Translations under genes and position numbers: made by a program | Shown here: piece after piece, positions 9,902-49,439 of the stretch | How positions within the stretch are numbered: position 1 is the stretch's first letter | Layout: every line of letters begins with the position of its first letter | The notes under the pieces: model-generated | The model's database searches: none | What the model was told of the DNA's origin: nothing | Seen by the model: the letters and a program-made list of their open reading frames with translations, nothing else | NCBI GenBank assembly: GCA_944322755.1 | Contig: CALUPY010000005.1 | Span: 1-64,000 of the forward strand | DNA from: Candidatus Gastranaerophilales bacterium | GTDB lineage: Bacteria; Cyanobacteriota; Vampirovibrionia; Gastranaerophilales; Gastranaerophilaceae | Reading direction: 5' to 3' | DNA: 64,000 bases

Positions 9902-9909
9902 AAGAAAAT

Positions 9910-10740
9910 ATGATGACAAACTTTGATTTTTTAAAAAATATAGACCACGATTTATATACGATAGCAGGTATAGCAGAAAAGCTCTATCGGGATGAGTATT
10001 TTGAACAGTGCATGGGACAGACGAGAAGGTTTGCAGAAAATGCCGTGAAAAAAGTACTTGGCAGCAGAGCTCCTTATGATGCCAGTTTTGACGAGCTTAT
10101 AAACACGCTAAAAGATTCGTCTACAGGAAAATCTATTGAAAAAGAGTTTATTGATGATTTATATTTTCTTAAAAAAGCCGGTAATATTTCTGTTCACGGC
10201 GCAACTGTAAAAAAGGACGGAATCACGGCATTAGAGTGTTTGAGAAGAATGTTCGAAGTCGCTATAAACTATGCAGTGCATATAGATAAAACAAATGCTG
10301 CTCTGCTAAAACTAAATTATGACGAAGAGTTATTGCTTCTTGGCAGACCCAAACAGGAGCAGACTCTGAAAGAAAAATATCTTGCAGCAAAAAAAATACT
10401 GGAAAAACAGGATAAGGTATCTCAAAAATCAACGAATAACAGAAAATCTGTAAGGACTAAAACAAATGGTATTCTGGATGAAAAACCAATAAAGCAAAAG
10501 AAAAAAAGTACAAACAAGATAAAGACAGAAAAACTATCAATCCCTGTTCAAAAAGCAGATAAAAAGACGAAACCGGCTAAAAAGAATACAAAACAGCAAA
10601 AATCCCGTAAATCTTCAAAAATGAAAAAGTCTCACGACAACAGACTTCCTTTGTTTCTTAATCCTGTTGCAATCACTATTTCCTTTTTAATCGGGGCAGT
10701 AGTACTTGTTCTTATTGCAGCAAGTCTTAAAATCCTATAA
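9910..10740 (+). CDS. DUF4145-like protein with lysine-rich linker and C-terminal membrane anchor
   Basis: 276 residues. The first ~140 residues are helical and resemble the DUF4145 domain seen at the start of some restriction and other stress proteins: CMGQTRRFAENAVKKVL, then LKKAGNISVHGATV (the conserved 'GN..vHG' turn) and ALECLRRMFEVAINYAVH. Residues ~155-248 are an extremely Lys/Thr/Ser-rich linker. A single hydrophobic helix at about 252-273 ends the protein, leaving almost nothing behind it, so it should be a tail-anchored inner-membrane protein with the domain in the cytoplasm. It follows the TolC gene by 8 bases, probably co-transcribed, and overlaps the convergent alanine dehydrogenase gene by 14 bases. 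No function is established for this arrangement; a scaffold or nucleic-acid-linked role is only a guess. Confidence 0.62.
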   Translation: MMTNFDFLKNIDHDLYTIAGIAEKLYRDEYFEQCMGQTRRFAENAVKKVLGSRAPYDASFDELINTLKDSSTGKSIEKEFIDDLYFLKKAGNISVHGATVKKDGITALECLRRMFEVAINYAVHIDKTNAALLKLNYDEELLLLGRPKQEQTLKEKYLAAKKILEKQDKVSQKSTNNRKSVRTKTNGILDEKPIKQKKKSTNKIKTEKLSIPVQKADKKTKPAKKNTKQQKSRKSSKMKKSHDNRLPLFLNPVAITISFLIGAVVLVLIAASLKIL

Positions 10741-16000: not shown

Positions 16001-19000
16001 TTACATATTTCTAAGAGCATTTTCCGTGGGGTTAAGAACGAGCCTTGTGAGGGACTGGTTGTACTGGTATTTCAACTTGTCAATCATTTCGTTGACAGCC
16101 TCATACTGTTCTTCCAGCTGTGCAAGGAAGTCCGCAAGCTCAGCCTGATTTGAGGCAAGCGAGTTTTGTTCAAATGCCATGGAGGCTTTGACATTGTTGA
16201 GTTCGCTTGTGTTCATTGCTATCTCGTTCATAATAGACTTGTTGGTAGACTCGAGAAGTTTTGAAGTCGAGGCAAAGTAGCCGTTGGTTTGCAAGGATTC
16301 ATCGAGAGTTTCCCTGAGTCTAGTGAATGTGCCGGCTTCAGCGTTGTTTATAGGCTTTCTGTCATTACCGATAAGAATGCCTTTAACCTTTTCAGGGTCG
16401 TTCATAAACGCATTTATAAACTTGTCTTTGTTGAGCGAAATAGTGACTCTGCCGTCAGAGGACGAAACACCGCCTGAGATAGCGACATTTATACCAATGT
16501 CAGACATCTGGCGCTGAATCTGCCTGTAGGTTCCGACATTGTCTGTGAGGGCTTTTTTGATGTTAACAATAAGCGATTCGAACGCGGCATCACCCTCAAA
16601 CACCTTGTTCTGGGAAAGTCCCATTGCTTCGTTAAACCGTTTTACGAAGGTGTTAAGCTTGTTAAATGCGTTGGTAACAGAGTTTTTCCCGATGTCGATA
16701 GTGCCGGAGCCTGTTGCTTTAAGCGTAAGCCTTATTGCTTCATCGGAACTGTCAGTGTCGACGAGATTTCCGTGCTTGTCGAGAGACACAACGTTTGACT
16801 GTGTCTCAAATTCCTGACCGTTCAGAGTAAATATTGCATTGTCACCGAGTGTCTGGGCGTTTTGAACAATATTAGAACCTGATGTCCAGCCAATCATATC
16901 TGTCAAATTCGTTGTACCTGCTTCAATATTAATACGTGCATCACCGGACGCGGAGTTCGATGTCAGGACGATTCTGTCATTTATAAATTCCGCATAAACC
17001 CCGTTCGGGTCTGTGGAGGAGAAGGCAGCGTTGATTTTGCCCAGCAGCGTTGCAATAGAGTCGTTTTCAGTAACGTTAATATTAGCACCGTTAATTTTAA
17101 AGTTTCCGGCGGTGATACCGATGGTGGAGAGCGAGACAGTGGGATTTGCAACGGCGATTTCGTTGCTGGTAATCACTGTTCTTTCAGCGTCGACACCGTT
17201 TTCGATTTGTGCACCGGAGCTGAGATTTCCGCCCGAGGTGAAGCCGATTTTGTTCGTGAAATCGCTTGTTCCTTTTGTGACAGAGATGCCGCCTGCTGTG
17301 GTTGTTTCGGTGCGGGTTAGAACCATTCTGCCATCAGCATTTATGGTTGCGGCAATACCGAATCCGGAATTGTTAATCTTGCTGATAATAGAATCTATAG
17401 TGTCATACTGTGAAATTTCGATACGCAGAGAGTCAGATATCGAACCATCCGTGTTGACAAGATTTATGTAGAAATCACCGGCACTGAATCCGAGCGTCTG
17501 AACACTGTGAACAGTAGAGTTCGAAGTCAGAGTGGACAGAGAGCCGATTTGAGACGGATTTGCCTGAGAGCCGTTTCTTGTGAAGCCGACGGTTTCAGAG
17601 AAGTCTGATGTGCCGTCAGTTACTTCTATAATGTAGTTTCCTGCTGTTTTTGAACGCAAAGCCAGACTGTTTGTGGAGGCGTCCATAACAGCTGAGATTC
17701 CGAGACTTGAATTCGAAATCATGCTGGAGATGTCAGCGAGGGTTTCGTTGCCGGTGAGCGTAAACGTCTGCGAAACTTTTTGACCGTCCGGATTGGTGAC
17801 AGAGATGATGAAGTCTCCTGCGGAGAATCTCATTGAGTTGTCGAGACCGGTTGTGGAGCCGGTGAGGGTCGAATAGACGTCGCTTGCACCGTTGACACCG
17901 ACGGCATTTCCGCCGAGAGTGCCTGCTGTGAGACCGAGAATCTGGGCGTAGTTTGTCGTTCCATCGTTTATAACAATGGTCGCACCGTTATCAATTTTTG
18001 TTGAGATGACGATTCGTCCGGAATCATCGAGCGAAGCTGTAAAGTCGCTGTCTGCACTGTTGTTGATAAAGTCTATAACATCACCGACCGAGGTGACACC
18101 CTGCTCGACATTGACGTTTAACGTCCTGTGACCGTCAGCGCTTATGGTGAATGCGCCGGAGGTCATGTTGTTAAACGTTCTGTCTGTTGTGAGCCCGTAG
18201 ACAGAGCCTGTTATTTTTGAATAACCCAGTGAACCGAGCTCGGTCGTTGTGTTGTAAGTCCAAGTTTTGCCTTTTAAGCCGACGAGATTGTAGAAGTCGG
18301 TTGTGCCGGAGACGGTTATGTCAGAGGCGTTCTGTCCGACTGTTTTAATCCAGAACCTGTTGAGATTGTCGAGTCCGGCTTCAAATATTCCGCCTTCGTT
18401 GATTTTGTCTATGACGTCCTGAATCCTGTCAGTGGCAAGTACGTCTATGGTTTTTGTTGTCGAACCGGCAGAGATAGTCATAGAGCCGGCTGTCATTGAA
18501 CCGAATATATGGTTTGCGGTGAGGTTTGAGACAGAACCGGTGAGCTGTGATTTTCCGGGGCCTTTTGATTCTGAAGTGTAGTTGGGGTCATAGACCGTAA
18601 CATCTTTTGAGAGCCCTGCCATTTCAACGAATCCAGAGGTATCGTTATCGAAAGTGATTGCTGATGCGTAGTTACCGATAATCTGGAGATAGATTTTGCC
18701 GAGGTTTGTTGTCTCGTCATAATTTACATGGAAATCTATTCTGTCAGCACGGTTTTCGTCGGTAACGTCATCGTGTTCCCAGATGTCATCTTCGCCCGCG
18801 AGTATAGCCTGTTTCATCTTGTTGAGAACGGAGGAAACAGTGTCATTGTATACGATATCTATTGTATAAGTAATATCCGGACGATAGGTAATACTACCGG
18901 TTTCACCCGTTGATTCTCTGGCGTGGAGGGTGAAAGTAAGCTGACCGTCTTTGAGACCCGTGAATATAGAATTAGGTTTCATACCGAAAACCCCGCCGCC

Positions 19001-22000
19001 GTCTGTCTGGGTTTCATATATAAAGTAACCCTGATCACCTGTCTCAGTCTGTGAAGACGGGCCTGTCGAACGGTCTACAGCTACGAGTCCGAGGCGCTGT
19101 GTCAGGTCTGTAGTCGTAACCTGCGTGTCAGTCGGAGTCTGGATAGTGGATTCAATGTAGAATCTGCCTTCTTCATCGAGGTCAGCCTTGTATGCGCCGT
19201 TGGTCTGTGAGTAGACTTTGTTTATAATATCCTGAATAGTGTCAGTCGAAGAAATCGAGACATTGAAAGTACCGTTGCCGCCTGATATCCGGAAGGTTTC
19301 GGCCGTGAGGTTGCCGAGCAGGTGACCTTTTGTAAGGTTTTTAACAGAACCTGTCAGACGGTCATAGCCCCAGGACTCGATGACAGGGTCATTGTTTTCT
19401 GCATAATTGTGTCCGTTCGAGGTCAAGCCGGCAAGATGCGTAAAGTTTCCGGTGTCATTTTTAACGGAAATTGTTTCGGATTGTGCCGAATTGTAGACAT
19501 CGGAGGTTATGACGATTCTGCCCTGAGAGTCGAGTTTTGCAGAATAGGAGGCTGTATAGTAGATTCTGCCTGACGAATCAGTGTAGGCTGTGCCGTAGAG
19601 GTCATATTCTTCTTCATCATAGACTTTGTCAGAGAAGGGGTCTGTGATATATTTGCCCGTATCATATACGTAAGTACCCTGCATCTGGCTCAAGATGTAG
19701 TCTATGGTCGAACCTGCCGAGTAGGTGATAGTTTTCAGGAGCCTGTTGCCGAGATACAGGTCAAAGGAGCCGCCCTCCTGCAGAGCAAACGAGAAGTCAC
19801 CGTACAGGTCAGTGCGTGAACCGGTCAGAGTGTCGGTCTTTTTCGTGATACCGTTCCAGTCATCGTCAGATTTGTTCGTTCTGTTGGCGGAGCCGTTGGT
19901 GCCGGATGTCGCAATACCGAGAAGTTTCGCAGCGTTGCCGGTATCGGAGATGGTGACTTTTCCGTAGTATCCGTCTGTAACAATGCTCGTACCGTCCGAG
20001 CTGACTGACTCAATACCTGTCGAGTTACGCAGGGACTGGAGTATGGAGTTTATGGAAGTCGTAGACGAATAGGAGAACGAAGCAATGTTTCCGAAGTAAG
20101 AAGAGCTAATCGTTATCGTACCGCCCTGCTGGCCTGCAAAATGGGTGTTGAATGTAGAGGAGTTGTACGAAGTGGAGGACTGGATTTTTCCGTTCGTGTA
20201 CTGGTCTACTACGTGGGTCGAGGATACATTTCTGTAGGTCAGACCGACAGAGTATTTGAATCCGGGTGCATTGTAGTATCCTTCTCTTGTATCTGTAGAA
20301 TAAGTTGTTGAGTAGTCTTTTGTCCAGTAGGTTTCGTAGTACCAGGTACGCGAGTATACGTGCTGGTTTCTGACTCTGTCAGACGGGTCAGAGATGGTGT
20401 TTCCATATCCGGTGTCTCTGGTAGACCAGGCGGAGTCTTGTGTACGTTCTTGATATGAACCGGAATACCATGTGGTTAGATTCGTTTCTATGGACGTCTG
20501 GTATGTCGTGGAGGTGGTGAGGGTTTCTGTTTTTTTGTCACCTTCAACCCATGTAGATGTCGTTGTTGATTTATAAATATGGGCAGCCCAGTCATACCCA
20601 CCTGAACTATTTGCCCAAGAACTACCAACATAAGTATATCCTGAACCATAACCACTTCCCGCGCTGTTTAGTGCAGAATCTGCGGCACTTTGACTAGAGG
20701 CAGAACCGTTTATTGTCGTAACCCATTCACTTGTAACATTGGTAGTATAATATCCGTCAGAACCGGTTGTTTTTACCGTTGTACCATAAGTCGTACCCGT
20801 CGTATGAGTGGTTTTGTTGGTTTCAATGGATGAGGTATAGGACTGGTTGCGGTATTTGTCACCGGAGAAGGTTGATTTTGTGGTGCTTGCGCCCCATGTT
20901 CTGTCTGTCCAGATTTCGTCCTGATATTTGTATTCATAAGTAGTACCGTATTCAACGCTGGTGTCGTAGGAGTAGTTGTCCGCACCGGAATGATCTTTTG
21001 ACAAATCCCAGTCGTCAGTCTTTTCAGACCAGTAGTCATATGAATATTCCCAGTGATTTCTGTAAACACCTGCTGTGACGCTGCCGGAGGAGACGGAATA
21101 TCCGGCAAGTCCGAGCACTCTCGCTGCGTCTCCTGACGCAGTGACAGAAGCAGCAGTCGAAGAAGCTGACGAAGCGGAATTCGACTGGCGTTTCAGCATG
21201 ATGACGAGTTTTCCGTTGTCCCAGCCTGCTGTTGCAACGCTTGAATAACTGTTGTTTATCTTGTCAATGACGCCCTGTACTGTCAAACCTGAAACATCGA
21301 CCATCGTGCCGTTGAGGTTTACGGAACCGGATTTTATTGTACCGCCGTCGTTTTTGACGGTGGAAGTAACAACAGCGTGATAGTGATATCCGTTGTCGTC
21401 GCCTTTTTCAGTGTTTGCTGTAGATGATGCGACAGAGTATGCATCCAGACCCGTGATATGTTCAAAATCACCGGTGCCTTGAATTGTGTACTTAATCGTG
21501 TCACCTTCACCTGCGGTGTTTGCGCCGCCGTTTGTGTTGTATTTTGATTTGTCGTCAGCGTTCTGGTCATCAATCTGAGTCAGGACAAACTGGCCGTTTA
21601 TCAGGGAGGCTTTGACTTTTGTTGTGGAGGCTTCTGCATTAATCTGGTCGATTGCCTCGGCTATCGTGATTTTTCCGTCACCGTTTGAGTCTCTGAATGT
21701 AATAGTTCTCGCTACAGACGCAAGGTCGCCCGTGCCGGTCATTGTATCAACGCCCGTGAATCCGGGTCTTTCCCTTGTCATCCAGATAGTTATGGAGTTT
21801 TCGCCGAGAATCTGGTCTGTCAGAGTCAGCCCTGATGTTCCGCCGGTAATAGTCGCAGGATCTTTTCTTTCCTGTGATTTGTCGCCGTCCAGCGTCGTCT
21901 GAGTAGCCATACCGACTACACGTCCAAAGTCCCCGGCCACGCCGTCAACTTTTTCCATGCTTATTTTTATATCAAACGGACCAACAGCACGGCTTATCAG

Positions 22001-43000: not shown

Positions 43001-46000
43001 TCCTGTTGCGTAGGCGTTCGTTACATTACCGCCCAATGTTCCTGCAAGAGCGCCAACATTAACATAACCCACGACATTAGCATTTTCTATGCCTACATTT
43101 TTTATTTCAGCATCGGTTGTAATACCAAACAAGCCGACATTAGATTCATCAGCCCTGTCGATAGTCAGATTGCTTATGACATAACCGTTGCCGTTAAATT
43201 CACCGGTGAAGGCGTTTGAGTCATCGCCTATCGGATCCCAGTTTTCGTAAGCCGAAAGGTCGATGTTATTCATCAGGATGTATTTTCCAGTGATGTTTCC
43301 GTTTTCGTCGACGTTATTTCTGATATTGTCGAGGTCTTGGGCTGTTTTGATTATTGTGTAGCCCTGTGCGAGTGCTTCTTCTTCCGTTATACGGTTGACA
43401 GTGTTTATAAAGTTTCCTGAGTAGACAGTAGAGGTGCCTGCTTCGACTTCGTAGTCCGCAAGTCCCGTCACACGCGCAAAATCGCCTGTCGCCGTGATAG
43501 CAAGTTCACCGACGGTGCTTTCTATTGTGAATCTGCCGTCTTTTATGGAGGCTGTGACGCCGTCCAGTCCGAGGGCATTTATTTCTGCGGCTATTTGGTT
43601 AAGGGTTTTGTCTTTTGTGCTTATTTCAGCTGCATCACCGACTTTGAGGGTGCCGCCGATGATTGTTTCTTCTCCGGTCAGAGTTGAGGCTGTGCCGTAG
43701 TGGCGGGTTATTGTAATTGGCCCTGTCTGCACCTGATCCGCTGCACTGACTGTATAGTCGCCGAGTCCGGTTACGCGTGCAAAGTCGCCTGTCGCAGTTA
43801 TGGAAAGTTCACCGTTCAGGCTGTCTATTGTGAATTTTCCGTTTGTTACCGAGGCTGTTACGCCGTCTATTCCCAGTGCGTTTATCTCATCGACAATCTG
43901 GTTAATGTTTTTGAATTTTGTATTGATTTCAGGGGCGTCGCCGATTTTAAGTGTGCCGCTTAAGATTACCTCGTCGCCTGTGAGGTCTGAAACCTTGCCG
44001 TAGTGGCGGGTTACCATCATCGGTTCTGATTCTTCTACGGTTCCGCCTTCAATCTTGTAGTCGCCAAGGCCAGAAACTCTTGCAAAGTCGCCTGTTGCAA
44101 TGATAGACGGGGTTACATTTTCGCCCTGTATCGTAAATCTGCCGTCTGTTATAGAAGCTGTTATTCCTGTGATATTCTGGGCGTTTACCTCATCAACTAT
44201 CTGCTGCAGCGTTTTGCCTTTTGTGTCTATTGCTGTTCCGCCCTGAATCTGCAATGTGCCGCCGAGAATTGTTATATCTCCGGTCAGTGAAGATGTTGAG
44301 CCCTGAACAGTGGTTATTGTGCCGCCGGGAATGTTCTCTATTGTGCCGTCTTCGGTGTCGTATGTCGCAAAGCCCGTTACCCTTGCAAAATCGCCTGTCG
44401 CAAGAACTTCTTCTGCTGCGCCGTCAAATTTTATTGTGAATTTGCCGTCAGTTATAGAGGCTTCGTAGTTTGTGAATTCAGACAGGTCGTTTATTTCATC
44501 CACTATCTGCTGCAGAGTTTTGCCGGCAACATTAAAGTTGTCTACACCGATTTGCAAAGTGCCGCCGACTATAGTTTCCGAGCCGGTCAGTGAATCTTCC
44601 TGTCCCTGCATTGTTATATATGAAGAACCGCTGCTAACGTTGTATTCGGCAAGCCCTGTAACCCTTGCGGCGTCGCCTGTTGCGTTTATCTCAATTTCAC
44701 CGCTAGAGCTTGTGACAGTGAATTTTCCGTTGACTATTGCGGTTTGGACGCCTTCAATATCCAGTGCGTTGAGCTCTTCTACTACCTGTGCAAGCGTTTT
44801 TCCGGCTGCGTCTACAGTTTTATCGCCGATTGAAACAGAGCCGCTTACAAGCGTTTCTGTGCCGGTCAGGCTGTCGGCCTGTCCGGTGTATGTATGAATA
44901 GTTATAACAGGTCTGGCTGTATCTGTTGAGCTGCCTTCTGATATAGTATAGCTTGCTAGTCCTGTTACCCTAGCAAAGTCGCCGGAGGCTATTACATCGA
45001 CCTGGCCTCTTTCGCTTGTGACAGTGAATCTGCCGTCTTTTATGGATGCAGTAACACCGGAAATATTCTGGGCATTGATTTCTGAAATTACTTGGTTGAG
45101 TGTTTTTCCGTCTGTATCAATTACCGCATTTCTGTCTATTTGAATGCTGCCGCCGACAAATCTTTCTGAACCATTTAATGATGTGTTTTGTCCCTGCATG
45201 AGGGTAATTGTTTTGTAATTTACTTCCGGAGACTCTGCGGATGTGTTAGAAGTGGTTGCGCCGGCTGTGCCCGTACCTGCAAGCCCTGATACACGCGCAA
45301 AGTCGCCTGATGCCTGCACATCAACGATTCCGTTTTCGCTTATTATCGTAAATGCTCCGTCTTTTATGGAGGCTGTGATTCCTTCAAGTCCCTGGGCATT
45401 GATTGCGTCAATGACTTCCTGCATTGTCATGCCTTTGGTATTTATTTGGGCGCCGGAGCCTACTTTTACTGTACCGTTTAAAAGAACTTCCGAACCGTCG
45501 AGAGTGTTTGTTGCACCCTGCATCTGGGTTACTGTAACCGCTTCTGTTGACGAGCTGGTTCCTGCTTCGACTATGTACGAGGCAAGTCCGGTGATTCTTG
45601 CAAAATCTCCTGTGGCTGTCACGGACGGAGCGTTTGAGCCTTCTACTTTCAGAGTGAACCTTCCGTCTGTTACAGATGCGCTTAAGCCGTCTATACCTTG
45701 TGCGTTAATTTCGTTAATTACCTGCGCAAGTGATTTTCCGGTTGTATCTATTTCTGCATTGTCTCCGATTTTTATTGTGCCGCCTACAGAAACAATACTG
45801 TCGTTAAGCTGCATTTCAGAACCTTGAACAATAGTGTAGGTTTCTGTGTTTTCGTCTACAACGTTTGAACTGCTGCCGGAGCCGATTATGTATTCTGCCA
45901 TTCCTGTTACGCGTGCAAAATCACCTGAAGCCTGAACGCTCGGGACTGTATCAGTACCGGTTACTGTAAATTTTCCGTCTTTAATTGATGCAGTTATTCC

Positions 46001-49000
46001 GTTAAGTCCGAGGTCATTAATCTCTGTAACGATTTCTCCCAACGTTTTTCCGGCTGCATCAATAGTGTTTCCGTTTACTGTAATGCTGCCGCTGACAATG
46101 GTCATATCTGCTGTGAGGGAGTCATTTTGGCCGGACAGGTGGGTTACTGTTTTGTCTGCTCCGCCCGCTGTTCCTGCCTGGTCAGTAACGACAGCGCCGC
46201 CTGTTGCGTAAGATGCCATGCCTGTTACCCTTGCAAGATCACCGGTTACTGTGACTTTGGGAACGTCTGTTCCCATTGATACAATTGTGAATTTTCCGTC
46301 TTTAATTGAGGCTGAAACACCGGATAAGCCGAGATTGTTGATTTCTGAAATTATCTGGTCGAGTGTTTTTCCTGTTGCATCAATTTCTGCGCCGTCTGCA
46401 ATTTTTATTGTACCGTTTATGACTTTTATGTCTCCGGTAAGGTTGTCAGCTGCGCCTTGCATCTGAATTGCGTTAGGGGTAGGCTGCGGTGTTCCGTCAG
46501 GGGCATTGCCCTGAATTACATAGCTTCCAAGTCCGGTTGCCCTGCCAAAGTCACCTTCGCCACCTATAATATAGGATATGTTTTCTATACTGTCATCTAT
46601 TGCAACAAGCTGGAACTGGCCTGTGGATGTGAGTTTTGCTTCGACTTTTGTTTCATCTTTGTGGGAGTTTATTATGTTTATACAATCCTGAATTGTTTCT
46701 CCCATGTCCATTGTCACGCCGCCTATGGTCAGGGTTGAGCCTTTTAGTACCTGTGAATAGTCATCAAGCCCGGTTACTCCGCCGGTTACGCTGGCATATT
46801 GAATTTCTACGTGTGTGTTTGAACCGTCAACGGTTGTGTAAGTTCCTGCACCTACGACTCTTCCCAAGTCTCCAGATGTAATCTGGAAGGAGATGTTTTT
46901 TACGCCGCTGTCAATATTTCTGAGAACTAGTCTGCCTTCATCATTCAAAAATGCTTCTACTCCTGTTGCTGCAGAGTGGGCGTTGATTGCATTTAGGGCT
47001 TCTGAAATGTTTGTGCCGACACCTATTGTCAATCCGTTAACTACAACCGTGCTATTCATAATCTGGGTGCCGTATGAAACAGAGTTTGCTGTTGTTAAGA
47101 TTGTTTTTGTTGCACCGTATTTTTCTTCTTTGCCCGCAATTACCTGATAGCCTATGATACCTGTGATTTGACCGAAATTGCCGTTTACATCCTGTACTGA
47201 TATGGGCAGGGAGCCGTGGCGTGTTTCTGTCAGGACTAGTTTTCCGTTTTCATCAATCGAGGCTTCAACGTATGTTTTGTCAGAGACCGCATTTATGTTT
47301 TTGATTGCGCTTTCCAGCGTGCCTTCTGCTATATTGACTGTAATACCGTTGATTTTAATTGTGGATACACCGACTTCTGTTGCAGAATTAACGATTTCGG
47401 TTCCTGTTAACGTTGAAGCAGAACCTTCTGCGCCTGCAACAAAATTCGATGCTGCAACACTTTCTGTTGTGAGACCTGTTATTTCTCCAAAATTGCTGGT
47501 TCCGCCTTCTATGTATAGGGCGGTGGAACCGGTCAGACGGTTTCTGATGGTTATGTGATTGTCTTTGTATTCAGCAACTATGCCGAGTTCTTCACTATAC
47601 TGGTTGATTTCTGCGAGAGCCTCTTCTATGCTTCCGCCTTTTAGCTGGATAGTTTTGCCGTTAATCTTAAATGAACCGGCTGTTACAGCTCCTGCAGTGG
47701 TGATGTCAGTGATTTCTTTTGTGCCTGTCGTGTGTGTAAAATAATCCCCGTCAAGTCCGGGTGAAAGGATACCCGTCGACTGTGTGCCTTCTGTCATTCC
47801 GACAAATTCCGTAAAGTCGCTGGTGCCTGCTTCGACTGTTATTGTGTAGCCTGAGCCTTTGTTATTCTGTACAAGTTCAAATACTCCGTTTTCGATTGTT
47901 GCGGAGATACCTATTCCGGAATTGTTGATTTTGTTGATGATATCATTGATTCCGTCATCTTCTTCTATTGTAATAACAGCAGACTGCTCCGAGCCGTTAT
48001 ATCCTGTTGTGATTTTAAAGGTGCCTGTTGTGTAACCTGTAGAATCTGCATTTACTGCTGTGTTTCCGGAGAGTTTTTGGGCTGTGCCGTCATTTCCTAT
48101 TACAAGGCTTCCCGTGTTCATGCTTCCGCCTTCGGTAAAGCCGATTGCGTTTGTGAAATTGCTTGTTCCTTTTTTGATTTCAATAAGCACATTTCCTGTT
48201 CTGTTTGCGACAAATGTGATTTTGTTGTCTTTTAGCATTGCACCGACGCCGTATTTTGAATCGGAGTTTATGGTGGAAATAAGGCTGTTGAGAGTTGTGT
48301 CTTTGTTTATGTATAGTTCCTGACCGTTTATCGAGAACGAACCCTCTGACATAGTAAGGCCCATTATGTCGCCAAAGTTTGTATTCTGATTGGTGATTTT
48401 CATGGACTTTCCTGCTTCGGATTCTATGTAAAAGTGGTTGTAATCATCAAATCCGGCTTTGTATCCGTTTACTCTGAGTTTTTCAATAACATCGTCGATT
48501 GTGTCTGAACCCTTTATCGAAATAAGGTTTCCGCCAAGTTCAAAAGTGCCTGTAGTTACACCCAGACGGCTCATTGTCATAGAACCTGTCAGATCAGAAC
48601 GTGTCGAAGTAAGCCTTTTTCCGTCAAAACTTCCGGCAAATAGGTCTACTATCTTTGTTTCTCCGTCTACGCTTACTCCTTTTAACGCGTTGCTTATTGC
48701 CTGTGTGGCTGTTGCTACCTGTTTTACCGTGTATTCAATACGTTGTGAATCCACATTTCCGCTGATGAGTTCTCCGTTTACAGCCGAGCTGTTTGTATTA
48801 AATATATCCCATATTGAGGAGGCACTTGAGTTTTTTACGCTGTTTATAAAATCGTCGAGTGATGACACAGTTCTGTTGTAAGAACTTTTTACGCTGGAAA
48901 GTGTGCCGAGTTTGTTCGTTATTGAGGTCGAGCTGCTGTTTAAGTCATCTATTGTCTTTTGCAGGCTTTCAAGATACTCAACATATGAGCTGTTAATCTG

Positions 49001-49156
49001 ATTTGAATAAGCGTTTCCCTCTCCTCCTGTGCCGAGTGATGAAACACCGCCAAGAGAATTTGCACTTTTCTGTTTGTTTAAAAGTACGTTGTTGACAAGT
49101 GATGAAATGGAGGCGTTTCTTGATGAAAGGCCGTTTGTGTAAATACTTATATTCAT
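16001..49156 (-). CDS. Giant FliD-like protein with hook-IN repeats and twelve GLUG modules (11,051 aa)
   Basis: An uninterrupted 33-kb frame, about 1.1 MDa. Residues 1-170 resemble FliD_N: a short start, coil-forming helices, then EYTVKQVATATQAIS, matching the FliD 'y.itV.qLA.a' strand. Residues ~170-890 are hook IN-type repeats (GxFxING, DTIxxxIxxIN, A.i.dG.fvi, ixxGTSNF...GFT). Residues ~890-8980 are an insert: ten tandem ~100-residue IN repeats ending TGDFARVTGLxxY, then twelve GLUG modules with IN linkers bearing AFWGQxxGTIxFSNG and SDTxGFxDFYGL. Residues ~9360-9675 are Tyr/Trp-rich. The last ~250 residues resemble FliD_C, with paired helices (TFTRLRETLDESL ... LEEQYEAVNEMIDKLKYQYN). There is no signal peptide. 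The ATG has GAGGAG 7 bases upstream. The likely role is an extended surface or filament-tip adhesin; family assignment is strong at both ends, function is inferred. Confidence 0.85.
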   Translation of the reverse strand: MNISIYTNGLSSRNASISSLVNNVLLNKQKSANSLGGVSSLGTGGEGNAYSNQINSSYVEYLESLQKTIDDLNSSSTSITNKLGTLSSVKSSYNRTVSSLDDFINSVKNSSASSIWDIFNTNSSAVNGELISGNVDSQRIEYTVKQVATATQAISNALKGVSVDGETKIVDLFAGSFDGKRLTSTRSDLTGSMTMSRLGVTTGTFELGGNLISIKGSDTIDDVIEKLRVNGYKAGFDDYNHFYIESEAGKSMKITNQNTNFGDIMGLTMSEGSFSINGQELYINKDTTLNSLISTINSDSKYGVGAMLKDNKITFVANRTGNVLIEIKKGTSNFTNAIGFTEGGSMNTGSLVIGNDGTAQKLSGNTAVNADSTGYTTGTFKITTGYNGSEQSAVITIEEDDGINDIINKINNSGIGISATIENGVFELVQNNKGSGYTITVEAGTSDFTEFVGMTEGTQSTGILSPGLDGDYFTHTTGTKEITDITTAGAVTAGSFKINGKTIQLKGGSIEEALAEINQYSEELGIVAEYKDNHITIRNRLTGSTALYIEGGTSNFGEITGLTTESVAASNFVAGAEGSASTLTGTEIVNSATEVGVSTIKINGITVNIAEGTLESAIKNINAVSDKTYVEASIDENGKLVLTETRHGSLPISVQDVNGNFGQITGIIGYQVIAGKEEKYGATKTILTTANSVSYGTQIMNSTVVVNGLTIGVGTNISEALNAINAHSAATGVEAFLNDEGRLVLRNIDSGVKNISFQITSGDLGRVVGAGTYTTVDGSNTHVEIQYASVTGGVTGLDDYSQVLKGSTLTIGGVTMDMGETIQDCINIINSHKDETKVEAKLTSTGQFQLVAIDDSIENISYIIGGEGDFGRATGLGSYVIQGNAPDGTPQPTPNAIQMQGAADNLTGDIKVINGTIKIADGAEIDATGKTLDQIISEINNLGLSGVSASIKDGKFTIVSMGTDVPKVTVTGDLARVTGMASYATGGAVVTDQAGTAGGADKTVTHLSGQNDSLTADMTIVSGSITVNGNTIDAAGKTLGEIVTEINDLGLNGITASIKDGKFTVTGTDTVPSVQASGDFARVTGMAEYIIGSGSSSNVVDENTETYTIVQGSEMQLNDSIVSVGGTIKIGDNAEIDTTGKSLAQVINEINAQGIDGLSASVTDGRFTLKVEGSNAPSVTATGDFARITGLASYIVEAGTSSSTEAVTVTQMQGATNTLDGSEVLLNGTVKVGSGAQINTKGMTMQEVIDAINAQGLEGITASIKDGAFTIISENGIVDVQASGDFARVSGLAGTGTAGATTSNTSAESPEVNYKTITLMQGQNTSLNGSERFVGGSIQIDRNAVIDTDGKTLNQVISEINAQNISGVTASIKDGRFTVTSERGQVDVIASGDFARVTGLASYTISEGSSTDTARPVITIHTYTGQADSLTGTETLVSGSVSIGDKTVDAAGKTLAQVVEELNALDIEGVQTAIVNGKFTVTSSSGEIEINATGDAARVTGLAEYNVSSGSSYITMQGQEDSLTGSETIVGGTLQIGVDNFNVAGKTLQQIVDEINDLSEFTNYEASITDGKFTIKFDGAAEEVLATGDFARVTGFATYDTEDGTIENIPGGTITTVQGSTSSLTGDITILGGTLQIQGGTAIDTKGKTLQQIVDEVNAQNITGITASITDGRFTIQGENVTPSIIATGDFARVSGLGDYKIEGGTVEESEPMMVTRHYGKVSDLTGDEVILSGTLKIGDAPEINTKFKNINQIVDEINALGIDGVTASVTNGKFTIDSLNGELSITATGDFARVTGLGDYTVSAADQVQTGPITITRHYGTASTLTGEETIIGGTLKVGDAAEISTKDKTLNQIAAEINALGLDGVTASIKDGRFTIESTVGELAITATGDFARVTGLADYEVEAGTSTVYSGNFINTVNRITEEEALAQGYTIIKTAQDLDNIRNNVDENGNITGKYILMNNIDLSAYENWDPIGDDSNAFTGEFNGNGYVISNLTIDRADESNVGLFGITTDAEIKNVGIENANVVGYVNVGALAGTLGGNVTNAYATGNVSGAGSMGGLIGAGYIQRDGLTFTGHTDIYSSYADVDVTVTQNSDGDIFGMALLGVGGLIGDIFGGTISESYATGDVTADIGGSYLGGLVGNNIASTIKNAYATGTVSNTDTVVAGGLVGSLWGGQISVLGITVTIDGVAQIQNSYATGNVSVQNVSQGKTGGLIGVADGSISGYIQNSFWNTDSTGASQAVGGVDSIAGASSDMSMDNIKAAGWDESIWDLSGATPTLKDQNAYAENFVAKVDYISEKEAIAQGYTVIKTAEDLNNIRNNVDENGNITGKYILMNNIDLSSFENWDPIGDGPTVFTGELNGNGFVIKNMTIDRADESNVGLFGYAKDAVVKNLGIENANVNGSAAVGALGGNFVGEVTNTYATGTVTGDLDVGGLIGINFTLNRNNSLRPDDWTIEGGSTISYSYTDVDVSSTGLMNDGYAATFTSPAYYNAIGGLVGNSANATISQSYVLGNVSGEKIGSFEQGDEDTSYVGGAVGVSWGTTISNTFVSGDVIGGQDFGSTGGLVGIHSDEYEIQFLGRIMPISVNKGAIINSYATGAVTGGSEDVITGGLVGAVSQSTDLDTYLQNSFWDINSTGQANALDSVLEDGYAVFGFNAVDANYTGTGASSDMSSAQNFIDAGWSEEIWDFSGNASSLTGTNTPSENFVSQTNHISESAAIAQGYTVIKTAEDLNNIRNNLSGKYIIMGDIDLSGYTNWDPIGDDSAAFTGELNGNGYVIKNLTIDRTDEDYVGLFGSSQGEIKNVGLENVNVKGGNYTGAIAGNLEGNIYNSFATGSVTGKNYTGGLVGSTFESANIQYAYSDVDVTGEAGAGGIAGYAVLSEISYSYSTGNVTGTKNIGGLIGLSAGNNLTNTYSTGNVKGTENVGGLLGSYMISPLGYKTGRIKNSYAAGEVSGTTNTGGFIGHASGEQMPGMSDELTGIENSFWNADTTGQPNAFGYEDIDYPVLIVGTLSSDMSSAQNFIDAGWSEDVWDFSGDMPTLKQANKTVNPTINITNPYATGEAPDPRYDDTTITGSVNAGEMADSAFWGQKDGVLTIYVDDGKIHDDSPYAASGKTGFNIEIKINANDTRTAIMNRINLLAEDDYWVTEDGDAGQPITEDDLVLVREGTGVYAKIDENGNLTLTGEGKVSIVSDTSGFSDFYGLTATDTVHKGEVIVEEETISASGELHKGNFTNSIKRLTEEQAVEQGYTIIKTAQDLDNIRNNVDENGNITGKYILMNDIDLSAYENWNPIGDSSSAFKGTFDGNGYVISNLTINRADESNVGLFGYAKDAVVKNLGIENANVNGDVFIGVLAGVFSGEVTNTYATGTASGAMSVGGLIGEDFTIIRNGMEYSVIGSNISYSYANVDVSSTVDNTDSDPSILGVQYRGFGGLVGHSANSTISESYATGNISETGNATNCLFVGGGLVGHSEGSTLSNTYATGNVSGQNEGFAGGLVGLHLSESFAHYVAGFLPLQLNTAKGSITNSFATGSVSCSISSGNVGSTAGLVGAVSENTDLDTYIQNVFWDADSTGQQNLIGKIYKFDALKYADDETFYQDANYTGTGASSDMSMDNIKAAGWDESIWDLSGSTPTLKDQNASKFTQQIYQLTEDEALKQGYTLIKTAEDLNNIRNNLSGKYILMGDIDLSGYTNWTPIGDDSNAFTGTLNGNGFVIKNLTIDRADETYVGLFGYAKNAVIKNLGIENANVNGGGVVGVLGGTISGEITNTYVTGTVTGKGFVGGLVGEDFVFDKSSLDLNEWTVNGSNISYAYADVDVTCIGDKNYEFEDIYNFFTHNSIGGLVGTSANSTISESYALGNVSGEQISSDTICYTGGLTGASWGSTLSNTFASGDVTGGQHFVSSTGGLVGMHVPYYFTANVDLGIAQFPISIPTNEGAIINSYATGSVTGSNSAGIIGLLFGGIEIDSYLQNTFWDSTSTGQTNAIKSTAPDLVNMELITDANYTGTGASSDMSSSQNFIDAGWSDEVWDFSKNPPTLKQTVQDGRVTTLTGSVNVEELLEYSAAGLDDGEITFSDGTKVTIDADAEKNIDAAIKAIKAAGLDISVGYEGKIYISSTNGPISIVADTSGFSQLVGLMETDTTYDGEVITEQVDPNAPVVDFINPVTQLTEEEAIAQGYTVIKTAADLDNIRNNVDENGNITGQYILMGDIDLSSYSNWTAIGTDASAFTGELNGNGYAIKNLTIDGTNSDYAGLFGYANNLAVISNVALKNVSIKAANNNTGALIAKMGDGAVIENSYATGTIEANGITGGLAGTMESGAKIMSSNSGLTMVGNTADYTGGIAGVLEKGAVIEDSTSASIIRDGSNLGGFAGLLNGTVKNSSFTGTVEGVENIGGIAAVIGSTGIAQNITVSGTISGTQYVGGVAGTMENGGMLSYSSIHASVYGIGDDNSIIGGLVGDNYGEITETTFSGNVNGKSDVGGFVGVNDATGNIHDTGVMSGSVTGDTGVGGIAGENYGKIRDYILVSGTVKGNSEVGGFVGVMYDGGEIANSYNLGTVQGKETIGGLVGLMNGGTIEYSYSEAVVSGDNTIGGLVGITNGGSIENSYAGGLVYGVHNTGGLAGEANGGTITDAYFNIESTNQIHGYGVLLAGVAQDSATGLTSFEIANSSEYDWINNFKTNLESNGITIPEHSSALSETAGVYRLTEEEAIALGYTVIKTADDLAAMKNNLSGKYILMNDIDLSGISNWAPIGTDFYSAFTGVFNGNGFTISNLTIDRADENNIGLFGYTFGAEIANVRLENVNINGGAAVGGLVGYSDTTKIYNSSVVNGNISAGGHVGGLVGTLASSTISNSYTDITITATDMIAGGLAGYACWSDNSEIISSGDNHSYIFNSYSSSNVMCDNNGGGLIGFLSDAFVYSSYANCDGNGGGLVGAEGGYGNNFVSTFWDKDKKHGYTTQYQLIPDDDTYVTTPPNESSVTYQGLTSEEFKNSQNFIDAGWSENVWDFSGEAPVLKTQNIFSTPVSATPPDTETPDMPDTPATGQGTELTGSVDTDDLADTAFWGQKDGVLTIHVDDGTADGFDVEIQIDAGDTRTDVLNKINDLAEDLILPEWVGDGGQHQDDQSPEPSTPSGTGNYEVIREGTGVYAKIDENGNLTLTGEGKVSIVSDTSGFADFYGLDADGAEYDGEQTFSVEQTTQHSTLTGSVDTTELTGGAFWGQSSGTIEFSNGAKVTIAATDDLDTVLQKINDAGLSAEIDENGFIKISDDSEYIRITYDNTGFSEFYGLKTPTPIIVSQGSADNLTGSEQIISGNITLSYDDRKHVIQTDGKTVDQIIEEINAKNISGIIASIEDGRFTITSINNDKINITGTNDAARVLGIANYSVEAAATNHLTEEEAIAKGYTIIKSASDLQNIGSSGRYILMCDIDMSGVTDWTPKSSFYGVFDGNGYTIRNFTSTNGGLFGILEGEVRNLTMENVNVSAETGAVGAIANEGGRDNNVGKIYNTFVSGTVSGEDGGDFIGVGGLVGGRYSFSPTGGKNVNIINSGADVTINAKGNAGGLVGFGGGTIINSYANVNIQTEGNAGGIIGYAWEDYDLLLKNVFSTGTISNNSNSGNSDIGGIIGTTVSAGGDLKLINSYSTATLSSNYGNIGGLIGYSLYDETYIENSYYSGVITGSAYASGLIHDNSSFYYSIKNSFWNVELSGVSTSECGGTGLTNAQMADMQNFINAGWDESVWDFSGSTPTFNQEAQKSSILYGSKMVDNSSLAFNGQKDGTLTFSNGVSIDISKTDSLSVVRKKMEEAGLYTNTSCGFTIIGSGTDNLTVVSDTSGFAKYWGLTSEWSTPGIVTNTYYNPKENEIIQQGSGLTIQGASSNLSGDDVILSGSVSVGGNSIDTTGKTLQEIVDEINALDIKNVTASIEDGKFTIRSASKISVSGTGDFARVTGIASYEVQGTGKISEADAIEQGYTIIKTAEDLNNIRNDAINGDITGKYILMNDIDLASFGDWESIEGFQGIFNGNGYAIKNLHGDSGLFDDLNNAEIKNLRLENVDIEGYMGVGSLASQAYNNTIISNIYVTGSVTATRVYAGGLLGCLGTYGSDASTVTNAYVDVDVTVKGEETLDSDEHSQSGALFGAMYSGTNVSNVYVAGSVNAYDGYKTLIGQFDASENSSDFSNVYWNTDESNIDAICIENYGEITITNVTGKTTGELSNPSTFTDTGWDESVWDFSAGTPELRIFGTHSILGSVDTTDLSGDYFTGQQSGTISFSDGTNVTIDATDNLNTVLDKINAAGLSAQIDDKGRILLTSSKTDKLSVTSDNTGFTDFYGLSDVITYDGELEIGVGEIIPGSREPEENEEINLEKNSYLEGTVNTQGFSNNAFYGQKDGVLTFSDGTVVNISANDTRAQVLKKINEAGLKTVILSDGAIQISKEGSGGLSIVSDTSRFAEFYGLLSTDKNYSGSISSSQETTNSVTMQGASDSLTGNEKFVSGTIEIADSVIDAAGKTLNQVIDEINALNIEGLSVSLKDGRFTIESTSGIVNVQATGDAARVTGISSYIVQNVSVSRDFITSVDKISEADAIAQGYTVIKTAEDLLKINDDLEGKYILMNDIDMSSVLNFTAIGGSDVFEGIFDGNGFVIKNLTINDTTSESVGLFGMNQGTIKNVGLENVYISGYGATGALVGANVAYGVVSNSYSTGVVRNTDPDASDSTVLANAGGLIGLNYFGGTITDSWSSAEVESKNYAGGLLGANAAGNISNSYATGNVSGEYGVGGLIGMSANTSGFSIKNTYATGNVTGTNRVGGLIGATQDETVENSYAMGSVTGVSDVGGLIGSFISNTTVTNSFWAVDSTGQDTSAGGTGITSSDFADLTMFVNAGWDESIWDFSGSAPALKDQNSGNSTQDIAKITGSVDTSGFTGEAFYGQQSGTISFSDGTNVTIGANDDLNTVIQKINAAGLTAEIDASGRISISKEGAKDLSVASDDTGFAAMYGLLNTDTVYSGGFETTFEEASTVPESSTLTGSVDVTDLNDAAFWGQTASTITFSNGASITISESDTRSDVLQKLNNAGLTAAIDENGHITITAKDTADLKVTSDDTGFTGFYGLGETDTNYSGSSSISTIQEEIIVDVNTIMQGSQTSLTGSELVLGGTLKVGNGTVIDATGKTIQQIVNEVNAQKLTGITASITDGRFTITSENGEVAVVATGDLARVTGLDDYVVDRVTADDADVTLITRYTGSSTGLTGNETIVGGTIKVGNGAEIKTKGKTLQQIADEINAQNISGITASITDGKFTIDSKNGSVSIAVSGDFARVTGMGDYRVGSAASQTTPSTEETLTFVQGSSQNLTGDEYILSGTISIEGEGTAIDGLETKGKTINQIISFINSMVPKYQASITDGKFTINGDVKISATGDFARVTGLGDYTVEAAEITSETAPGTGSSTSAIDSVGFISEVDRLTESEAIAQGYTIIKTADDLDNIRNNMSGKYILMNDIDLSSESNWAPIGLFNGTFDGNGYVIKNLTINDNSVMYAGLFSETGPNSIIKNVGLENVNINASKAVAGALVGQNKGEITNCYATGTVSGDDYVGGLVGFNDSFNLPKTTTILNSYAQVDVTGTSYVGGLVGENNYGAVENSYATGNVTGSQYYIGGLVGQNYGSSSSISNSYATGNVSGSIAVGGLTGGTEGYIENSYSSGRVTGTDSTKTGGLSGYTENESKITNSFWDTQKSGQSSSFGGQGLTSSQMSNAQTFIDAGWSEDVWDFSGSAPVLKVQSAAADSSEGSTPVNKTTITGSVSTTNMADNYFWNQKNGVLTIHVDDGTADGFDVTINISATDTRSDIIEKINDLGKDITISDWPSEGETGHVPAGTETEIKETGESIWKKGTGVFAELDENGRIRIYSDNALSLEITSDTSGFADFYGLDSEKTIYTGNQDISTTTVGNPGSTTITGSVNVTGMADNAFYGQKTGSIYFSNGKHINVNENDSRTIILQKMENIGLDVNIIDGKISISGEEGLRITQDITNFSDFYGLRSKVNTYDGEIHSEEIIVSAESTPDTGSSAATGIVRLSEEEAIAQGYTIIKTAQDLDNIRNNVNADGDIIGKYILMNDIDLSGYANWDPIGDLSSSFQAEFNGNGHVIKNLTIDRADENRIGLFGFIGRGASIKNVGLENVNISGNSAVGGLAGKVESNSTNTAIEISNCYVTGTINGGYATGGLVGRSSSGIIKNSYFIGDTSGGQCVGGITGVNSGSIENCFASGSVTGTNVQVGGLVGNNADTVVNSFWNTEYIESGMYNQDSGSSIGVESNNQGITTSEFSNAQTFIDAGWDENIWDFSGGMPAFKSPGSSSSGGSTDTFSSSLTGSVDAGSMTDAAFWGQQSGTMTIHVDDGTADGFDVTINISATDTRSDIIEKINDLGTGTIWGDFGDNGSHVEAGSDADTPEDSGTEFVTGATGVFAELDENGRIRIYSDNALSLEITSDTSGFADFYGLSESGKTYTGFTSTKTEGELAPATSTLTGGVDTSDYVDAAFWGQKDGILKFTNGMSVEISATDNRTDVLNKLNAIEGVTAIINAEGKIQITAENAQDLMVESDTTGFADFYGLTSAGGVYGGSVNSSEIVIDAGESTLTGSVNTLELSGGAFYGQNTGTISFSNGTTVNINSTDTLAQVLQKINDAGLQASINADGKIEITATGASDLSVTSDTTGFTDFYGLKTNSVYYSGSPEQNTQIADAGADTSSTLTGAVDTRTYSGDAFTGQQSGSITFSNGTTVSINAADDLNTVLQKLNNAGFKASINADGKIEITADGTLNLKVTSDTTGFSEMYGLGSSQTFHAGSLTAETETIKGSEGGASSSTITGSVDTRDFADAAFWGQKDGTINFSNGISIAISATDTVSKVIEKMNAAGLQAAINSGGKITITAENTSSLNVISDTSGFADFYGISVYGGTYTGSISTSGIMTPTRQSRSISLMSTSPSSGVSGTTSDGENVGQTFSKLTGTNNVTNTTQILESIITISYKNDAGVDTSKTYTLKAGTLQSAMDTINNSNWYVKAQITEDGKFELISRAVGPFDIKISMEKVDGVAGDFGRVVGMATQTTLDGDKSQERKDPATITGGTSGLTLTDQILGENSITIWMTRERPGFTGVDTMTGTGDLASVARTITFRDSNGDGKITIAEAIDQINAEASTTKVKASLINGQFVLTQIDDQNADDKSKYNTNGGANTAGEGDTIKYTIQGTGDFEHITGLDAYSVASSTANTEKGDDNGYHYHAVVTSTVKNDGGTIKSGSVNLNGTMVDVSGLTVQGVIDKINNSYSSVATAGWDNGKLVIMLKRQSNSASSASSTAASVTASGDAARVLGLAGYSVSSGSVTAGVYRNHWEYSYDYWSEKTDDWDLSKDHSGADNYSYDTSVEYGTTYEYKYQDEIWTDRTWGASTTKSTFSGDKYRNQSYTSSIETNKTTHTTGTTYGTTVKTTGSDGYYTTNVTSEWVTTINGSASSQSAADSALNSAGSGYGSGYTYVGSSWANSSGGYDWAAHIYKSTTTSTWVEGDKKTETLTTSTTYQTSIETNLTTWYSGSYQERTQDSAWSTRDTGYGNTISDPSDRVRNQHVYSRTWYYETYWTKDYSTTYSTDTREGYYNAPGFKYSVGLTYRNVSSTHVVDQYTNGKIQSSTSYNSSTFNTHFAGQQGGTITISSSYFGNIASFSYSSTTSINSILQSLRNSTGIESVSSDGTSIVTDGYYGKVTISDTGNAAKLLGIATSGTNGSANRTNKSDDDWNGITKKTDTLTGSRTDLYGDFSFALQEGGSFDLYLGNRLLKTITYSAGSTIDYILSQMQGTYVYDTGKYITDPFSDKVYDEEEYDLYGTAYTDSSGRIYYTASYSAKLDSQGRIVITSDVYNSAQSETISVKNDTGNFTHLAGLTSNGHNYAENNDPVIESWGYDRLTGSVKNLTKGHLLGNLTAETFRISGGNGTFNVSISSTDTIQDIINKVYSQTNGAYKADLDEEGRFYIESTIQTPTDTQVTTTDLTQRLGLVAVDRSTGPSSQTETGDQGYFIYETQTDGGGVFGMKPNSIFTGLKDGQLTFTLHARESTGETGSITYRPDITYTIDIVYNDTVSSVLNKMKQAILAGEDDIWEHDDVTDENRADRIDFHVNYDETTNLGKIYLQIIGNYASAITFDNDTSGFVEMAGLSKDVTVYDPNYTSESKGPGKSQLTGSVSNLTANHIFGSMTAGSMTISAGSTTKTIDVLATDRIQDVIDKINEGGIFEAGLDNLNRFWIKTVGQNASDITVSGTTDFYNLVGLKGKTWTYNTTTELGSLGYSKITGSVYGLTTDRTFNNMTSGAFTISADGHRTLNVNVEQGVTSVGDVIDFINNSADSDFTASLDDSGRIVISTKIDNGATIVINDGTTNYAQILGLTAGTLGGNAVGVNGASDVYSTLTGSTTGLDNSMRFSAGDFIISVTNPDGQKVSQTFTLTGNETLADISSMISNSSLGISAVMDASTNSLALRSKTAGNYIIEVTDGTSDFSETVGFTRNGSQANPSQIGSLSTLTSNSTVHSVQTLGFSAGDFYINLVNTDGSISDSLRIEISQYDTIDSIISKINNSGFGIAATINADGRMVLTRTETTTAGGISVTKGTSDFTNKIGFTSGGNLSSGAQIENGVDAERTVITSNEIAVANPTVSLSTIGITAGNFKINGANINVTENDSIATLLGKINAAFSSTDPNGVYAEFINDRIVLTSNSASGDARINIEAGTTNLTDMIGWTSGSNIVQNAQTLGDNAIFTLNGQEFETQSNVVSLDKHGNLVDTDSSDEAIRLTLKATGSGTIDIGKNSVTNAFNKLNTFVKRFNEAMGLSQNKVFEGDAAFESLIVNIKKALTDNVGTYRQIQRQMSDIGINVAISGGVSSSDGRVTISLNKDKFINAFMNDPEKVKGILIGNDRKPINNAEAGTFTRLRETLDESLQTNGYFASTSKLLESTNKSIMNEIAMNTSELNNVKASMAFEQNSLASNQAELADFLAQLEEQYEAVNEMIDKLKYQYNQSLTRLVLNPTENALRNM
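20130..21070 (-). other. Tyr/Trp/Thr/Ser-rich block inside the giant protein
   Basis: Residues about 9360-9675. Its first 118 residues hold 15 Tyr and 6 Trp among many Ser and Thr (phrases such as WEYSYDYW, TTYEYKYQDEIW). The repeat pattern of the neighbouring hook-IN units stops at its start and resumes at its end. The 3,980-residue paralogue has no such block. Confidence 0.75.
21656..21691 (-). other. EF-hand-like calcium loop in the giant protein
   Basis: Residues 9156-9167 read DSNGDGKITIAE. Positions 1, 3, 5, 6, 8, 9 and 12 (D, N, D, G, I, T, E) fit the canonical calcium-binding loop. It sits inside a hook-IN unit just before AIDQIN, at the position matching the loop in the smaller paralogue. 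Confidence 0.65.
23930..24019 (-). repeat. 90-bp near-identical intragenic repeat, copy 1
   Basis: Matches 25631-25720 with a single mismatch. It encodes the IN-type linker with VDDGTADGFDV and ATDTRSDIIEKINDLG. The similarity continues with more mismatches on the downstream coding side. Confidence 0.9.
25631..25720 (-). repeat. 90-bp near-identical intragenic repeat, copy 2
   Basis: Partner of 23930-24019, differing at one base. The two copies flank GLUG module 12 and its linkers, so recombination between them would remove one module in frame. Confidence 0.9.
33633..33715 (-). repeat. 83-bp exact intragenic repeat, copy 1
   Basis: Identical over 83 bases to 39555-39637. It encodes the linker segment AKIDENGNLTLTGEGKVSIV and following residues, after GLUG module 7. 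Confidence 0.92.
39555..39637 (-). repeat. 83-bp exact intragenic repeat, copy 2
   Basis: Identical to 33633-33715, but following GLUG module 3. Exact identity at synonymous sites indicates recent duplication or gene conversion within the gene. Confidence 0.92.
43410..46450 (-). repeat. Tandem array of ten ~100-residue hook-IN repeats
   Basis: Ten units of about 305 bases. Each reads roughly: LTGSExxxxGTxxIG, xIDTxGKTLxQIxxEINAxxI, GxTASIxDGxFTI, then ATGDFARVTGLxxY. The IN core (DTxGKTLxQIxxEIN) matches the flagellin hook IN motif. The array lies between the N-terminal FliD-like part and the first GLUG module; isolated units of the same kind recur later, before modules 8 to 11. Confidence 0.8.
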
Positions 49157-49272
49157 GCCAAAACTCCTCTCACCACAAGCAAGAGGCTATATTCTGAAAT
49201 ATGCCATTGTTTGACTACACATTTTTTCATGCGTACATCCTTGGGGTATATTTTCAATTTACACAACTCGAC
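49157..49272 (-). promoter_or_regulatory. Structured leader of the 11,051-aa gene
   Basis: About 116 nt. It shows three hairpins: ACGCAT/ATGTGT; then GGC-ATATT / AATAT-GCC with a TCAG loop and one bulge (49205-49185); then CCTCT/AGAGG (49186-49182 with 49170-49166). The last stem pairs the Shine-Dalgarno AGAGGAG (49170-49164), seven bases before the ATG. The second and third stems share two bases, so they cannot both form fully. Confidence 0.6.
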
Positions 49273-49307
49273 ATAAACAGTATATCACATTGATATAAAT
49301 AACGCAA
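49269..49307 (-). promoter_or_regulatory. Promoter of the 11,051-aa gene
   Basis: Minus strand: TTGCGT (49307-49302), 17-base spacer ending TG-A, TATACT (49284-49279), an extended -10 sigma70-type promoter. The 25 bases from 49293 to 49269 match the divergent promoter at 24 positions. It does not resemble a sigma28 flagellar promoter. Confidence 0.75.
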
Positions 49308-49400: not shown

Positions 49401-49439
49401 TTGCAGAAGTGATGTCAATATGATATACTGTTTATGTCG
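49401..49439 (+). promoter_or_regulatory. Promoter of the 3,980-aa gene
   Basis: TTGCAG (49401-49406), 17-base spacer ending TG-A, TATACT (49424-49429). The 25 bases 49415-49439 are the twin of the divergent promoter. Between the two promoters lie about 90 AT-rich bases with no further feature I can name. Confidence 0.75.

Follow-up and report, generated by a model that had tools for sequence, protein, structure and literature searches.

An 11,051-residue FliD-like protein with conserved arms and a variable centre in a Gastranaerophilales bacterium

The window, by which we mean the whole stretch of DNA analysed (64,000 nucleotides of contig CALUPY010000005.1), belongs to a genome (G000) of 2.19 Mb in 43 contigs that is 99.97% complete, and the nearest orthologues of its giant gene sit in assemblies titled Candidatus Gastranaerophilales. 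Members of the Gastranaerophilales are non-photosynthetic relatives of cyanobacteria and mostly uncultured gut bacteria. Two divergent giant genes, each preceded by a copy of the same short element, were located in the window:

16001..49156, minus strand: giant FliD-like gene (protein of 11,051 aa and about 1.16 MDa)
49603..61545, plus strand: divergent paralogue of 3,980 aa with 29 Flagellin_IN (IN) units and no GLUG cassette (unit HMM; domain search)
49269..49293, minus strand: 25-bp element preceding the giant gene (each of four species has two copies in its genome)
49415..49439, plus strand: 25-bp element preceding the 3,980-aa gene (the other copy of this pair)

The giant frame of 33,156 bases runs from an ATG at 49156 to a stop at 16001-16003 through 11,051 uninterrupted codons, and at the composition of the window a stop-free run of this length would arise by chance with a probability of about 10^-283. 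A ribosome site, AGAGGAG, lies about 9 bases 5' of the ATG. The coordinates, length, intactness and ribosome site given in a preliminary description were thus correct; the giant lies on the minus strand, and a plus-strand reading of the interval was ruled out by its 373 stops.

The two ends of the protein were compared with those of FliD by domain profiles, profile-profile alignment and structure prediction.

48557..49156, minus strand: N-terminal helical region resembling D0/D1, residues 1-200 (aligned by hhalign to the N-termini of normal FliD; Foldseek matches with FliD caps are weak)
16004..16846, minus strand: FliD_C region, residues 10771-11051 (FliD_C 33.4 bits; hhalign probability 99.9% to normal FliD)

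The C-terminus matched FliD_C (PF07195) at 29.7 and 33.4 bits in two runs, above the cut-off of 25.4, and carries paired helices. Both ends had been called FliD-like; the C-terminus bore this out, and Flagellin_IN was matched in many places, but FliD_N (PF02465) found no match in the giant protein at E <= 1 and reached just 20.8 bits in a 6.2-kaa paralogue, below its cut-off of 24.8. The segment EYTVKQVATATQAIS occupies residues 141-155. When an N-terminal profile built from eleven relatives of the giant's type was aligned to normal FliD N-termini with hhalign, residues 66-183 aligned at a probability of 95.8% (E 8e-9) and the first 65 residues did not align. The C-terminal profile aligned to normal FliD at 99.9% (E 7.5e-33), and the wrong-end controls gave 4% and 0.4% with no alignment. 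The model predicted for the start of the protein was poor (pLDDT 53); with it the first five PDB ranks in Foldseek were all FliD caps or complexes at E 5e-3 to 1e-2, a weak indication of a FliD-like D0-D1-head topology. PDB sequence searches with the ends failed or were weak; the C-terminal profile did not recover FliD there, and its two matches were set aside as most likely coiled-coil chance matches.

Kinship with FliD is supported, at the level of sequence, by FliD_C, by the Flagellin_IN units and by the profile-profile alignment of both ends. Since FliD_C and Flagellin_IN were found and FliD_N was not, we class the protein as a FliD-like paralogue, short of calling it FliD itself. At the extreme C-terminus, several giants of the same type share a tail resembling N-x-N-N-P-x-F (NQNNPGF, NRNNPSF, NKNNPSF; 16004-16040 and 61510-61542 in the window), which is absent from the genome's normal FliD.

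The interior is assembled from two kinds of module, and its features are as follows:

16850..48550, minus strand: residues 203-10769, with 51 Flagellin_IN-type units and cassettes set between them (iterated HMM; Pfam Flagellin_IN)
46487..48550, minus strand: conserved N-arm of 7 units, residues 203-890 (84-93% amino acid identity to orthologues)
22202..46459, minus strand: variable centre, residues 900-8985 (window-by-window comparison; absent from the G033 orthologue, as seen at the junction)
24041..43390, minus strand: zone of 12 GLUG/M26_N-type beta-solenoid cassettes, residues 1923-8372 (domain matches; AlphaFold of one cassette)
20117..21079, minus strand: Thr/Ser/Tyr/Trp-rich linker, residues 9360-9680 (48.6% Y+W+T+S)
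16847..22201, minus strand: conserved C-arm, residues 8986-10770 (mostly 80-100% identical to the G033 and G064 orthologues)

The Pfam profile Flagellin_IN (PF07196) matched the giant above its cut-off at many places. A unit HMM, trained on five units and then iterated with each unit at E < 0.01, found 51 units in the giant, 29 in its 3,980-aa neighbour, 23 in the paralogue on contig C2 and just a single one in the normal FliD. That unit (residues 138-214) directly follows the D1 start, the same place that the array occupies in the giant. The 12 GLUG cassettes of the centre each span roughly 370 aa or more. AlphaFold predicted a beta-solenoid for one cassette modelled with the IN unit preceding it (mean pLDDT 88.3); its PDB matches by fold were a Bacteroides protein and IgA1 proteases, and by sequence 3n6z, a Bacteroides surface protein (E 2.9e-28). 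The earlier notion of a stretched filament-cap fold agrees with a stretched-fibre anatomy but not with a single fold, the interior being made of 51 head units in tandem together with 12 GLUG cassettes. The 321-residue linker at 9360-9680 is kept in the orthologues of the giant and is mostly without a match in the 3,980-aa paralogue.

The possibility of a peptidase function was considered. The GLUG/M26_N beta-solenoid of M26 IgA1 peptidases is present; the function was rejected because the HExxH zinc-binding motif is missing from the giant and its relatives.

A scan of contigs recovered three orthologues of the giant, all from the same genus, with lengths of 3,012 (G033), 7,267 (G064) and 8,903 aa (G092, or three residues shorter from the next start). 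Compared window by window, residues 1-895 and about 9000-11051 are orthologous in all the species. Over residues 1-890 the amino acid identity was 84-93% with dN/dS of 0.027-0.051, and in the C-arm dN/dS was 0.049-0.071, ratios that are rough since dS is near saturation. The 3,980-aa partner is nearly constant in length (3,980-3,981 aa in four species; dN/dS 0.026-0.047), and a relative of 3,827 aa in another genus is 64% identical to it. Judged by these ratios, the arms and the partner are under strong purifying selection.

The centre of about 8,000 residues is variable, mosaic or absent among the orthologues; that of G033 lacks it, the two arms being joined in a linker between units. The number of GLUG cassettes falls from 12 in G000 to 9 in G092, 4 in G064 and 0 in G033. 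The nearest neighbour of a GLUG head was in the same protein for 33 of 51 heads, against 6.9 expected, which points to duplication of cassettes within each gene. In the stretch 6901-7300, dS to G064 was 0.26 compared with about 1.2-1.3 in the arms, and this low value points to exchange of the stretch between species. The colinear segments of the centre had dN/dS of 0.11-0.17.

The genome also encodes a normal FliD (476 aa, contig 13), and for this reason the giant gene is classed, from its sequence, as a paralogue of FliD and not the FliD. A further paralogue of 6,203 aa lies on contig C2; in G064 its locus is a C-terminal remnant (contig 11, L061:13653-14729). FliD_C was found above cut-off in 55 of the 146 genomes of the family. 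A frame of at least 1,000 aa with FliD_C occurs in 16 of these, in five genera and always together with a shorter FliD_C frame, a tally counted from a table in which some frames are cut by contig ends. The other giants of the family measure 1.3-6.6 kaa and occur in at least five genera beside a normal FliD, the latter mostly of about 470-640 aa in the survey. In a phylum sample of 386 genomes no giants were found outside the family, and the 21 other genomes with FliD_C had frames of at most 799 aa. Giants with canonical ends exist in other genera, of 6,588 aa (G040) and 4,700 aa (G086), and the former aligned to FliD in hhalign at a probability of 100% at both ends. By these predicted lengths, the 11,051-aa protein is the largest member found of the giant FliD-like class of the family.

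The element upstream of both divergent genes, TCAATNTGATATACTGTTTATGTCG, has exactly two copies per genome, one for each giant gene, in all four genomes of the genus; in G064 this is so although the giant and its partner are on different contigs. It was found in none of the other 142 family genomes searched, nor was a reversed control. It contains an extended -10-like sequence, TGATATACT. In the copy belonging to the giant gene, a dyad, ATATCA-ATG-TGATAT, spans the putative -10. Since this private element is common to both genes, their co-expression is the natural inference. The region upstream of the giant gene showed no sigma-28-type promoter pattern; that of the normal fliD lacks it as well, so its absence at the giant says little. 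No Rfam family was found in the window or the leader. A hairpin that would mask the ribosome site (CCTCT...AGAGG) 5' of the giant gene was dropped as a candidate, not being kept in G092. A gene for a protein with CHASE2 and adenylate/guanylate cyclase domains lies directly downstream of the giant gene, at 13801-15891.

The host is a flagellated bacterium, and its genome has ten Flagellin_N matches and an FlhA above the flagellar cut-off on contig 1. Flagella genes have been reported earlier in part of the Gastranaerophilales (PMC4040986, PMC5877343). The other genes near the giant in the window are housekeeping genes, with no flagellar genes among them. In two relatives, giants adjoin flagellar genes, which may favour a flagellar reading. 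In G136 (L072:3673-18860 and on) a giant of 3,827 aa lies close to a small gene with a FliT match below cut-off, the normal fliD and the start of a second giant, in this order, and in G064 (contig 6, L053:9790-14097) a flagellin-like gene of 1,435 aa is convergent to the giant gene.

In FliD both chain ends lie in the foot, where the terminal helices and D1 dock on the filament end and meet their partners. We propose that the giant is a FliD paralogue that would leave the cell through a flagellar-type system and be retained at the tip of the filament, where it would display a long fibre loop; on balance this is probably correct. The terminal helices and D1 core would be kept as the docking foot, and the D2/D3 head would be replaced by 51 head-type beads and 12 beta-solenoids. 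The chain would pass unfolded through the secretion system; at the tip it may sit by itself or share the site with the normal FliD or the 3,980-aa partner. As its two ends are both in the foot, the insert has to run out and back, hence a loop or hairpin, in which the conserved arms may form the stalk and the variable centre the distal part, a putative binding surface that is adhesive or exchangeable. At about 3.5 nm for an IN unit and 0.48 nm for a solenoid rung, such a loop would, as a rough estimate, measure on the order of 100 nm. The giant has no stretch resembling a signal peptide or a membrane helix: the top 19-residue hydropathy, 1.69, is inside the chain, and within the first 45 residues it is at most 0.53. 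Together with the few cysteines (17 in the whole protein) and the FliD docking ends, this makes flagellar-type export and a seat at the tip appear most likely. The divergent first 65 residues, the unmatched FliD_N, the poor N-terminal model, the failure of the C-terminal profile to recover FliD in the PDB by sequence and the housekeeping neighbours in the window argue against the flagellar-tip reading. To our knowledge, a substrate of 1.16 MDa is far above any known for flagellar export. The stretched fibre suggested in the preliminary description fits the anatomy; a seat at the flagellar tip and a role in adhesion are both putative.

Another explanation, which we regard as improbable but deserving of weight, is that the protein derives from FliD and uses flagellar export, but is released or serves as an adhesin on the cell surface or the filament side. 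A normal-sized FliD accompanies the giants, so that the cap is already supplied, and the N-terminal 65 residues are unlike FliD. Against this, the FliD foot (its C-terminal helices) is conserved under purifying selection. It is quite unlikely that the giants are the tip proteins of a second export machine. A second set of FliF-, FlhA- and FliI-like genes lies close together on contig 14 (L091:3106-10249), below both flagellar and injectisome equivalog cut-offs; the genome has two full-length FlhA-like genes, and contig 3 holds a third FlhA-like C-terminal domain. However, the genes on contig 14 match flagellar proteins with better scores than injectisome proteins and have no linkage to the giants.

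Export by some other route, type I for example, would make the giant a cell-surface adhesin that merely kept its FliD ends. GLUG cassettes are typical of surface proteins and the window contains a TolC-family gene (8363-9901), but the lack of a signal peptide and membrane helix speaks against this very doubtful alternative, which also leaves the FliD-type ends unexplained.

The 33-kb frame might instead be a chimera or a wrongly expanded repeat. The assembly is split over 43 contigs, one orthologue has a mere 3,012 aa, and the only two exact repeats of at least 55 bp within the gene, of 92 and 83 bp, might cause a misjoin. Nevertheless, Tandem Repeats Finder (TRF) detected no tandem repeat or array in the window, which indicates that the repeats of the gene are old at the DNA level. 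With neither tandem arrays nor any exact repeat of at least 100 bp, it is unlikely that the length arose because identical repeats had been collapsed or expanded. The frame is whole throughout, and in separately assembled relatives the orthologous gene encodes 7,267 and 8,903 aa. The misassembly through collapsed repeats that the preliminary description had raised is unlikely on this sequence evidence, and an artefact of any kind is highly improbable. Finally, a decaying, non-expressed gene, for which the shrinkage of the related paralogue locus in G064 could be cited, is extremely improbable in view of 11,051 codons without a stop and dN/dS of 0.027-0.071 in the arms and 0.11-0.17 in the colinear centre segments.

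A FliD paralogue displayed at the filament tip can be set beside several known systems. Like the FliD/HAP2 cap (PF02465, PF07196, PF07195), the giant has FliD_C, a Flagellin_IN unit, helical feet and the same order of parts. Unlike the cap, which has a single head unit, it carries 51 of them and 12 GLUG solenoids, has about 20 times the length and divergent first 65 residues, and is a paralogue beside a normal FliD. The FliD of Helicobacter pylori carries extra head domains, D4 and D5, and is 74 kDa, and P. aeruginosa PAK appears to adhere to mucin through its FliD (PMC8306008). In H. pylori the head is likewise enlarged by added D2/D3-like domains, two of them in 74 kDa compared with more than 60 modules in about 1,160 kDa. 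The giant flagellins of marine gamma-proteobacteria, above 1,000 aa and located in the filament shaft (PMC6248924), are also flagellar with an enlarged outer region, but are not cap proteins. IgA1 proteases and the Bacteroides protein 3n6z have the fold and sequence of the GLUG/M26_N cassette in common with the giant, whose cassettes, unlike those of the proteases, lack HExxH and are set into a FliD-like frame. In its scale of thousands of residues the giant resembles the giant surface proteins of Apilactobacillus kunkeei (PMC12863079), which also have solenoid domains and show intragenic recombination, and SiiE of Salmonella (PMC6272769), which is secreted by a type I system. Neither is described with FliD ends. 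The extreme size initially claimed holds relative to the usual cap; since Omnitrophota encode proteins of up to at least 39,678 aa (PMC10066038), size alone is not a record. No published account of a giant cap-like protein was found in the open literature searched.

The conserved arms and freely evolving centre resemble, by analogy, the logic of tail fibres and adhesins, and a middle rebuilt from species to species suggests very long, variable fibres at flagellar tips. It is possible, and we put this forward tentatively, that the two genes form a co-regulated pair of exchangeable tip megafibres, in which one would be constant in length and the other would swap distal beads and solenoids by recombination, an adhesin evolvable in the manner of a phage tail fibre. 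If the proposed tip seat is true, a megadalton FliD with a conserved foot and an evolvable head would make the flagellar tip a platform for very long display fibres. The giant would then test the substrate size limit of flagellar-type export, and it would offer a mechanism of attachment for mostly uncultured gut bacteria.
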